Assembly (NCBI GenBank): GCA_963678705.1
Contig: OY783220.1
Location: forward strand, 7,957,001 to 8,021,000
Origin: Panorpa germanica
Lineage: Eukaryota > Arthropoda > Insecta > Mecoptera > Panorpidae
Direction: 5' to 3'
DNA: 64,000 nt
Shown: positions 539-51,290 of the stretch, piece by piece
How the letters are laid out: each line of letters begins with the position of its first letter
How positions within the stretch are numbered: position 1 is the first letter of the stretch
The notes under the pieces: model-generated
Told to the model about the DNA's origin: nothing
The model's database searches: none
What the model saw: only the letters and a program-made list of their open reading frames with translations
Made by a program: the position numbers and the translations under genes

Positions 539-3159
539 ATTTTTTACGCAAATACATATTAGCTTATTGCGTTAATAGCAAAAAAAAAGGACTAAGGTCT
601 TTGATTTGTATTTATTTTCAATGCAATCATAGTATGAGGCTGCTCCCCTTGTCCCAACTTGCTTTTCATTATAATAGTAGTAGAATCTCAATATAACGAA
701 CTAATTGTCGGATAGGATTATTTAAATAAATTAATATTAATGAAAACTCAGAAATACAATAAATAAATTTACAGTAAAAGGTTTGGTGAATTTTGTGAAG
801 AGTATCAATTAGAACGTCAGTTTATGTCATGTCCGTGCTACACTTTATTCAACCGACTATTGCTATCTCCCTTCTACAACAGAGATGATATTACTTATAC
901 GATTATAAAGAGGCGGATGAAGATGGTTAGTGCAAGAACAGGACAAACGTTTGAGGGGCGGTAGTATCGATGTAACTTGCATATAAACCAATTAAATAGA
1001 TGGCGTAGAGCAAATGCACTAGTCCTTCAATTATCATTATCACATTCTTTTATTATGTACATTTTAAATTAGAAGAAATCAACCACTACATTTTCCATCA
1101 ATACATTACGATATGGATTTTAAAAGAACAAATACAAATAAACAATACATGTATATACATCTATGTATATATGTATATCTAATAAAGAAAACTTTAATTT
1201 AATATATTTCTTAAGAAACAACAAAGTATAAGTTGAAAATGTTTTTTTAGTTTTAATTTATTCACATAACTGTAGAAATTTATTTTGTTAACACACACAC
1301 ACGAGTTTATATATTATATTTAAGGGAACATTTTTAAATATATAGAAAGTATCTAGATACGTAACTAGAATGGAATATAGTAATAAACAAAATCTGTTCG
1401 CTTACACTAATTTTATACTAGGTATTACTAGACAAATTTCTTCGTTAAATTGATCGTACTTTAACCGTATGTTTTCTCATAAACTTAGTTTGAACGAACC
1501 ATTTTTTTTTTGTTTAAATTTAAATTGAAAAAGATAGAATACTGTTCGTTCGCTCGTTTCGTGATCTCATTTTGAATTTAGTGTTATTATAGCCTTGCCA
1601 GGCATCCTGCAGGTGTTGTAAAACAAATATGTATGACATCACGGGGAATACGGTTGGTTATCTATGTAAAGGTTTACTTAAATATTAGCACAGGAATTAG
1701 TTTGACAACAGTTAGCAGAAAGTTAGAAATAATGTGTTTGAGAAATATATACCCACTAAGTACAATTACGCGTATTTAATTATGTCTATTTAACATAAAA
1801 AAAAATATGTTATGTAAAAAGTGTTATCTAATATACAACGTTTTGTTTACTGAAAAATAAACCGTCCTTGTGTCTAATTAATACATCCATTTTAAGAGTT
1901 AGAAATTCTTAAGGATCATTTTAAGGATTACAGGATTTTAAAGTATTTTTATAATATGATTTTAGGCTGAATTTATTTCATTGAAGATACTACGTTTTGC
2001 TAAAGTAAAATGTTACATTTTTTAAGGTAATATTCATGTTTTGTGTTTGGTTTACTGATTGTAGGACTGTGCTATATCAGTATTTTGGTATCGTTAACTG
2101 TTTTTGGTTTCACAATATTTGAAGACTACATTTTCTGTTAGAGATCTACAAAAATACTTTTTAAAATGCAAAATGTTATTTTTGTACATCTCTATTTTCT
2201 GAGAAAAACATGTTAATATATTTTAAACTATTACAAAACTCCACTAGAAAATATTATTAAAGAATGATGCAAAAAGAAGAATAAGGAATTAAAAGAATTA
2301 AAGTGTAAAAGCAGAAGAACGAGCAACATTTATATGTTGAAGATAAGTTCATAGTGAAAAAGATTAAAGAGTTGATAGAATAGGAACACATTTTATAAAA
2401 TTTTGCTGCTTAAGTAGGTATGGAAGTTGGAAGACATAGACAAATGATGGCGTAACGATGACCTTAATTGATCTTAACAGAACTATAAAAATTATAATTA
2501 TGACATTCTGACTAACATTATATTTGAATATTTATTTGGTTTGGTAATTTACATACATATTTTAATAATTATCACATTGAATCACAAAATGGGACAAAGC
2601 AATAGGACCAAAGAGGGGAGCCACAAGCTTAATGACTTCATATCTAATCTAAAAATCGGCATGAAAAAAACGAAAAAACAAGAAAAAAAAATTACGACAA
2701 TTTTCGAATGTGTGACATCACAACAGAGAGGGGAGGGTGTCTATAATGTGGTACAATGAAATTTGTGTGACGTAATTTATAGATGATCTTTCAGAGGTGA
2801 TTTGTGCCCAACTCATTTGATGCATGAACCGACGTAGTTACTTCAACCTTCATCACTTCATTAAGGTTAATCTTCTGCACTTTATAAGAAGAGAACGAGA
2901 AAGATTTGGCACTCGTCGACAAGATAAATCTGTCGGCACTTTCATTGCTTCCCCAACAAATAAATTCAAATATAAAAACCCAAAGATACTATTTCTAAGA
3001 TAATAAATACTTTCTAAGACTTCCAGCATTCTTATTGTTTTACCTCAAGGTCCTCCAATCAACAAGAAACAACATGATTTATCTAATATCGTAGGTTGAG
3101 ATAAAACTTATGAAAAACTTAGGTGACATAGTGTGTATGTGTGTGTAACTAAACATCGT
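539..3159. other. AT-rich non-coding stretch
   Basis: No gene or TIR element was recognised. It holds a short (AC)n run at 1291-1302, TATG-rich runs near 1147-1176 and a purine-rich patch at 2265-2350. The frame from 2541 is Lys-rich low-complexity sequence with no family resemblance. Confidence 0.5.
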
Positions 3160-3450
3160 CGTTTATAATTTGAATCCGCGGTCCGCAATGCGCGGTCGCA
3201 GTCTAACTGGGACTGGGACAACGCAGGGGTTGTTGCAGAGAAGCGAAGCGCGGGGGGAACAACGTGGTAGGGGTGGACAGTTAGAGGGAGTCGAGGTATC
3301 CGTAAAATCGCTCCGGAGTCGCAATCTATCCACCTCGTGTACAACACGGCAAAACAACTTAAAGAAACACACCACCGAAGAAGTTGTCAATCGTCCTAGG
3401 GGACTAACACCATGTGGGGCAAGACTAATCGTACAAGATATTGATATTTA
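3160..3450 (+). promoter_or_regulatory. CpG-rich island, candidate Shaker promoter / 5' UTR exon
   Basis: From about 3174 to 3330 the sequence is densely CpG-containing (CCGCGG, GCGCGG, GAAGCGAAGCGCGG, CTCCGG) in otherwise AT-rich DNA, 1.8 kb upstream of the Shaker start codon on the same strand. Two donor-like sites, GTG|GTAGGG near 3266 and GAG|GTATCC near 3296, could end a non-coding first exon. Reading frames are open on both strands here (for example 93 codons from 3170 on +), but none resembles a known protein, and open frames are expected where GC rises. Strand is given as + only because of the neighbouring exon. A TATA box or initiator could not be assigned. Confidence 0.35.
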
Positions 3451-5002: not shown

Positions 5003-5097
5003 TCACCATTCAAAAAAGCTCGAGCTTGGGGTTACACCCCTATGGTGAAGTTCGTAATGGAGTGACATGCACGAGTGTTGTGATGAATTAAACCTCC
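5003..5097 (+). promoter_or_regulatory. Sh: Leader directly upstream of the Shaker start codon
   Basis: This stretch holds two short upstream ORFs (ATG at 5067 and 5083; the second is ATG AAT TAA) and a small stem, GGGGT-TAC-ACCCC, at about 5028-5040. An acceptor-like AG ends the run at about 5018. The start context is CCTCCATGG, a good Kozak match with G at +4. A 5' UTR with short upstream ORFs is plausible, but the transcript boundary is not visible. Confidence 0.4.
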
Positions 5098-5249
5098 ATG
5101 GCTGCTGTGGCTGGACTCTATGGCTTGGGGGACGACGCCAGGCATCCAAGACGACGCGGTGGTGGAGGCGGTGGCGGCGGAGGGGGAGGGGGAAACACGC
5201 GGGACGACTACACTCGCGAGGCACAGAGTCGTGGAGAAACCCCAGACAC
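5098..5249 (+). CDS. Sh: Shaker (Kv1) potassium channel, first coding exon with N-type inactivation ball (partial)
   Basis: Seen: the ATG at 5098 opens a 50-codon frame starting MAAVAGLYGLGDDARHPRRR, then a run of 12 glycines (residues 21-32), then a polar stretch ending near SRGETPD. An in-frame TAA lies 9 bases upstream, so this ATG is the start. The frame stops two bases into codon 51 at a donor, CAC|GTGAGT (GT at 5250-5251), so the exon ends in phase 2. Known: the ShB-type N-terminus of Drosophila Shaker begins MAAVAGLYGLGED followed by basic residues. That peptide is the cytoplasmic ball that plugs the open pore and causes fast A-type inactivation. The layout here, hydrophobic residues 1-11 then R/H/R/R/R, is the same. 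Inferred: the poly-glycine run replaces the Gln-rich linker of the fly protein and serves as chain. T1, S1-S6 and pore exons are not in the window. The gene name is from recall of the family, not a search. Confidence 0.86.
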
Positions 5250-5255
5250 GTGAGT
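5250..5255 (+). other. 5' splice donor of the Shaker ball exon
   Basis: GTGAGT follows the coding frame directly and matches the GTRAGT donor consensus at all six bases. Reading through it gives ACG TGA, an immediate stop, so the frame is coding only if spliced here. Any partner exon must accept phase 2 (two bases of the codon already supplied). Confidence 0.75.
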
Positions 5256-51055: not shown

Positions 51056-51290
51056 GGTGTTGGATCACGAGAGATATGGGGGTCGCGCGAAGACTATTGT
51101 GAATCAGCCACAACATTTCTCGTATAGAGTTTATTGAGAAATGGGGGCTGACGCCTGTCCTCAAACCGAGGCAGGAGCAACGCCCCCTTCGCGGAGGTGG
51201 CCCCGATCAGGAGGGGGCCCCCGGTGGTGGTGCCGGGGGCACGGGGAATAGCCTCGAATCCCGAGGAGGACAAGGAGACAGGTACATTTT
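51056..51290. other. GC-rich island 2, candidate exon
   Basis: On +, a frame open from 51103 reads KWGLTPVLKPRQEQRPLRGG and on through a Gly-rich part to SLESRGGQGD, meeting a donor CAG|GTACAT at 51281 in phase 2, the same phase as the Shaker ball exon. Its only ATG nearby (51141) is out of frame. On minus, a frame of about 63 codons with high GC3 reads SGFEAIPRAPGTTTGGPLLI, GATSAKGALLLPRFEDRRQP and ends at a stop near 51100. The two readings exclude each other. Neither matches a family I recognise. An alternative Shaker 5' exon or a GC-rich retroelement piece remain possible. Confidence 0.3.

Follow-up and report, generated by a model that had tools for sequence, protein, structure and literature searches.

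Textbooks describe ball-and-chain inactivation of the Shaker potassium channel, and most of what is known of it comes from a single fly sequence. The closest described system is Drosophila Shaker ShB (PDB 9zs7 and 8teo; peptide 2lny). According to passages of a 2025 cryo-EM study (PMC12460158), the fly N-terminus loses its Met and is acetylated at Ala2, and enters the pore in an extended form with only non-polar residues inside. Acetyl-Ala2 touches I470, V4 touches V474 and P475, A391 lies within 4.5–6 Å of the plug density, and the association rate is raised by E12K/D13K (passages of the same study). Pore block by a Kv1 N-terminus is described as well for Aplysia AKv1 and for the ancestral inactivation domain of Kv1 channels; in both, acidic residues are conserved at positions 2 and 9 (passages of PMC3634772). 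The spiny lobster (Panulirus) shaker, likened here from paper titles, represents an arthropod gene with pore-region alternative splicing; such splicing of shaker potassium channels has already been published, the lobster attribution coming from citing passages in PMC3634772 and a second title.

We analysed a 64,000-nucleotide window of the scorpionfly Panorpa germanica (contig OY783220.1, abbreviated C17; window, C17:7957001-8021000), together with the sequence around it. Positions without a contig prefix are those of the window. Translation of 5098-5249 on the + strand yields MAAVAGLYGLGDDARHPRRRGGGGGGGGGGGGNTRDDYTREAQSRGETPD plus the two bases AC. The product begins with a 20-residue head, MAAVAGLYGLGDDARHPRRR, which runs into 12 glycines; a charged tail of 18 residues completes it, and the exon ends in a donor read as CCAGACAC|GTGAGT. 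Its features are as follows.

5089..5091, + strand: upstream in-frame TAA; no in-frame ATG intervenes between it and ATG 5098
5098..5249, + strand: predicted Shaker first coding exon, ShB-type (50 codons plus two bases, splice phase 2); in-silico join to C17:8075122 reads ...ETPD-T-SLPKLSSQ in frame
5098..5130, + strand: non-polar plug, residues 1–11 (MAAVAGLYGLG), equal to fly ShB by sequence match; residue role taken from the fly (passages of PMC12460158)
5131..5157, + strand: residues 12–20 (DDARHPRRR), two acidic residues followed by a cluster of basic ones; counted net charge +2, equal to the fly's
5158..5193, + strand: 12 glycine codons (GGA 4, GGT 3, GGC 3, GGG 2; codon count)
5194..5249, + strand: charged tail NTRDDYTREAQSRGETPD by translation, plus AC, the first two bases of a split Thr codon in the predicted join
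5250..5255, + strand: splice donor GTGAGT, from the sequence

Residues 1–13 are those of fly Shaker (PDB chain 9zs7) except for E12D, and 13 of the 20 head residues are identical. This alignment confirmed what the initial annotation had claimed of the ball, and its further claim that the basic cluster behind the ball is kept also held, as residues 12–20 carry a net charge of +2 in both species. The acidic residues at 12 and 13 are likewise retained (DD here; E12 in the fly). In contrast to Aplysia AKv1 and the ancestral Kv1 domain, positions 2 and 9 are Ala and Gly, as in the fly. Among 171 PDB sequences matched at E ≤10, 2lny, a fly ShB peptide, ranked first (E 0.00075). Long chains of fly Shaker followed at E 0.044, 0.044 and 0.089, and two entries that are not Shaker (0.074 and 0.082) fell between the second and third of these; within the best 60 of the 171, most other matches aligned weakly to the glycine stretch. 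The 20-residue head occurs at one place in the 464-Mb genome, in a search that scores best candidates only. The exon by itself matched no Pfam family. Viral-contig and genome-contig collections, neither meant for animals, gave 599 and 592 pattern matches to the 50 residues and no confirmed relative among them, and the peptide MAAVAGLYGLG was not found in the open-licence literature searched, in which GLYGLGE occurs in one paper.

The exon has a GC content of 66.4%, against 29.8% across the surrounding 264 kb. Another GC-rich island, at 3152-3352, lies 1.7 kb upstream of it (CpG observed/expected 1.35) and may be a promoter or an untranslated exon at the 5' end. Five ATGs lie upstream of ATG 5098. 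One of them, ATG 5067, opens an out-of-frame reading frame that overlaps the ball exon (5067-5249), stays open through the predicted splice and meets its stop in the common exon (C17:8075122-8075245). If they lie within the mRNA, these upstream ATGs, including that of the overlapping frame, could lower translation of the ball exon.

The exon to which the ball would be joined lies outside the window. A tblastn search of 20 neighbouring 10-kb stretches, using the fly Shaker sequence, placed Shaker exons in collinear order on the + strand downstream of the ball exon. The BTB_2 (T1) profile has 15 matches genome-wide, one of which, at C17:8081355, is on the same strand as the ball exon. The chorion family PF01723, typical of moths, had no match in the genome, in a search that control genomes did not validate. 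The first common Shaker exon starts at C17:8075122, also on that strand, with G|TCG CTG CCC. This first G supplies the third base of the divided Thr codon, AC|G, SLPKLSSQDEDG is in frame thereafter, and the resulting continuation, SLPKLSSQ, is shared with the fly; judged from sequence only, the two phases are compatible. The predicted first intron spans 112.9 kb, and the join across it, like all joins here, is a prediction; a fitting splice phase alone has a one-in-three chance of arising. Seven predicted exons give 1689 nt encoding 562 residues with a single terminal stop, whichever of two pore exons is used. The joined protein aligns to PDB 9zs7 over residues 1-532 and is nearly identical to the fly channel from T1 to S6. 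Identity reaches 452 of 481 residues over the alignment to fly 62-542, the fly sequence in that comparison having one Gln corrected against the PDB. With the Thr pore exon the protein scores 93.8 bits for BTB_2 and 180.1 bits for Ion_trans (cut-offs 21.4 and 25). The fitting phase at the T1-side exon and a predicted coding sequence open throughout bear out the proposal that this is an ShB-type ball exon of a genuine Shaker gene.

The 264 kb hold 31 GC-rich islands, 13 of which, not counting the one at the ball exon, precede the common exon. In the 11 of these nearest to the common exon, a scan for exons that start with ATG and end in a donor of the right phase, which can miss exons, returned a single weak candidate of 9 residues as an alternative first exon. 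A GC-rich open frame without an ATG at 51103-51281 ends AG|GTACAT in a phase that fits the common Shaker exon, and is possibly an internal exon of another Shaker isoform. The other acceptor tried for the fourth exon breaks the frame.

The fly residues that receive the plug (A391, I470, V474 and P475) are all kept here. So is the acidic pair before S1 (fly E192 and D193), which we take to be functional for the inactivation ball. The predicted plug and its receptor are conserved, and the channel probably shows the same fast N-type inactivation as the fly's, modestly retuned. On opening, the pore would be reached and plugged by residues 2–11 of one of the four N-termini, which, like the fly's, have probably lost Met and gained an acetyl group. 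The +2 patch at residues 12–20 would help the ball approach, and the glycine-rich stretch would serve as a flexible tether, 10 residues shorter than the fly's. We consider it very likely that the coding sequence of Shaker (Kv1) begins with this exon, which encodes the N-type ball and most of the chain. The tether is probably a disordered linker that has drifted, neutrally or with mild tuning, and that would shift the onset rate by less than about two-fold.

The chain is where the gene departs from the fly. The 12 consecutive glycines with all four GGN codons were as first described, and the rest of the exon indeed differs from the Gln-rich chain. The tract exceeds what chance would give: no other run of seven or more triplets of the form GGN (or NCC) occurs in the 264 kb, and when the bases of the exon were shuffled singly 20000 times, (GGN)12 never arose. 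Counting the junction Thr, 51 residues precede SLPKL, compared with 61 in the fly, and the T1 start ERVVINV falls at residue 87 rather than 97. Twelve glycines and a segment of net charge −2 replace the fly's Gln/Lys/Glu-rich stretch: from residue 21 to SLPKL there are 3 basic and 5 acidic residues (−2) here, against 8 and 7 in the fly (+1). Residues 21–50 hold one Gln, so that the Gln-rich chain, a fly trait and not a defining one, is absent.

The expected effect was estimated as ball concentration from a worm-like chain with assumed end distances and stiffness, a model that has no terms for charge, for the T1 window or for helical structure in the fly's chain. At equal stiffness, the ratio of the concentration here to that in the fly was 1.21, 1.17, 1.07 and 0.91 at 0, 2, 4 and 6 nm; with a softer chain here (0.3 vs 0.4 nm), it was 1.85, 1.64, 1.15 and 0.64. 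Overall, the ratio ran from 1.07 to 1.85 at 0–4 nm and from 0.64 to 0.91 at 6 nm, so length and stiffness together are expected to change the rate less than two-fold. The initial annotation had presented the chain as a natural variant that sets inactivation speed. The chain does differ, "variant" being meant relative to the fly alone, but an estimate of 0.64 to 1.85 times the fly does not bear out a notable change in speed. Charge bears on this as well. In Aplysia AKv1, acidic residues lining the side windows are proposed to attract the basic residues of the chain (passages of PMC3634772), and with 3 basic chain residues instead of 8, onset could be slower than length alone suggests. A helical fly chain, or this loss of basic residues, could upset the less-than-two-fold estimate.

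Other readings of the chain can be set against the same data. Chain deletions speed Shaker inactivation, and disordered linkers drift readily. An adaptive change that sped, slowed or otherwise retuned the A-type current in this lineage would suit a chain that is 10 residues shorter, glycine-rich and of net charge −2 instead of +1, and mutations in the AKv1 chain take effect chiefly ahead of the ON transition state (passages of PMC3634772). The small estimated length effect, the net +2 retained at residues 12–20 and that readiness of linkers to drift all speak against adaptation, which we regard as unlikely. Somewhat more doubtful still is the view that the tract arose by a recent expansion of repeats, or is one genome's allele, in which case the chain length would not be settled. 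GGAGGG is repeated perfectly through the second half of the tract (2.5 copies, 5179-5193), and a weaker repeat with a 9-base unit covers its first part (2.8 copies, 81% match, 5156-5180); both favour expansion. Against it, the tract draws on every glycine codon and holds no pure triplet run. The earlier argument from mixed codons stands for triplets, since pure triplet expansion is excluded, and fails for longer units, as these repeats leave room for slippage of 6 or 9 bases.

That the exon is a non-functional relic, no longer joined to a channel, is very improbable. The 112.9 kb to the common exon is what would suggest it, yet start, donor, phase and ball residues are all intact over 50 codons, and this is the sole place found for the ball in the genome. 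Drift of a disordered tether on a working ball exon remains our preferred reading. As a natural variant of a familiar mechanism, the predicted gene is a modest one, known here from DNA alone. The same ball and receptor with a glycine tether would make a ready-made natural test of the chain's contribution, and of whether the fly chain behaves as a plain flexible polymer or a partly structured arm. The effect is expected to be modest, and linker drift of this sort would be unsurprising. Among the papers listed by searches of the open-licence literature, judged by titles, abstract starts and term matches, none was on a polyglycine or glycine-rich Shaker chain, and none helped on the effect of chain length, the passage on that subject in PMC12152087 being about TEA derivatives. 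Similar sequences may sit unremarked in public insect genomes.

The predicted gene also contains a pair of pore exons, outside the window.

C17:8090809-8090938 and C17:8091005-8091134, + strand: two tandem 130-nt pore exons sharing their phase, predicted Shaker exons

The two are identical at 97 of 130 bases. Counting split codons, only 2 of 44 residues differ, alongside 27 synonymous codon differences. The first exon has Gln and Arg (GYGDMR) and the second Ser and Thr (GYGDMT), at fly Asn423 and Thr449 as numbered on 9zs7. Divergence at silent sites with so little change in protein suggests that both exons have long been under selection and that their use is mutually exclusive. Basic residues at Shaker position 449 speed C-type inactivation. 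In the fly, C-type inactivation is slowed by T449V (passages of PMC12460158); a search for "T449R" with Shaker found nothing in the open-licence literature searched. We tentatively raise the possibility that one gene sets two inactivations separately, the ball on its short glycine tether governing the N-type, and the choice between the Arg449 and Thr449 exons switching slow C-type inactivation together with external TEA or toxin block. This exon pair, with Arg or Thr at fly 449, may be of more interest than the glycine chain.
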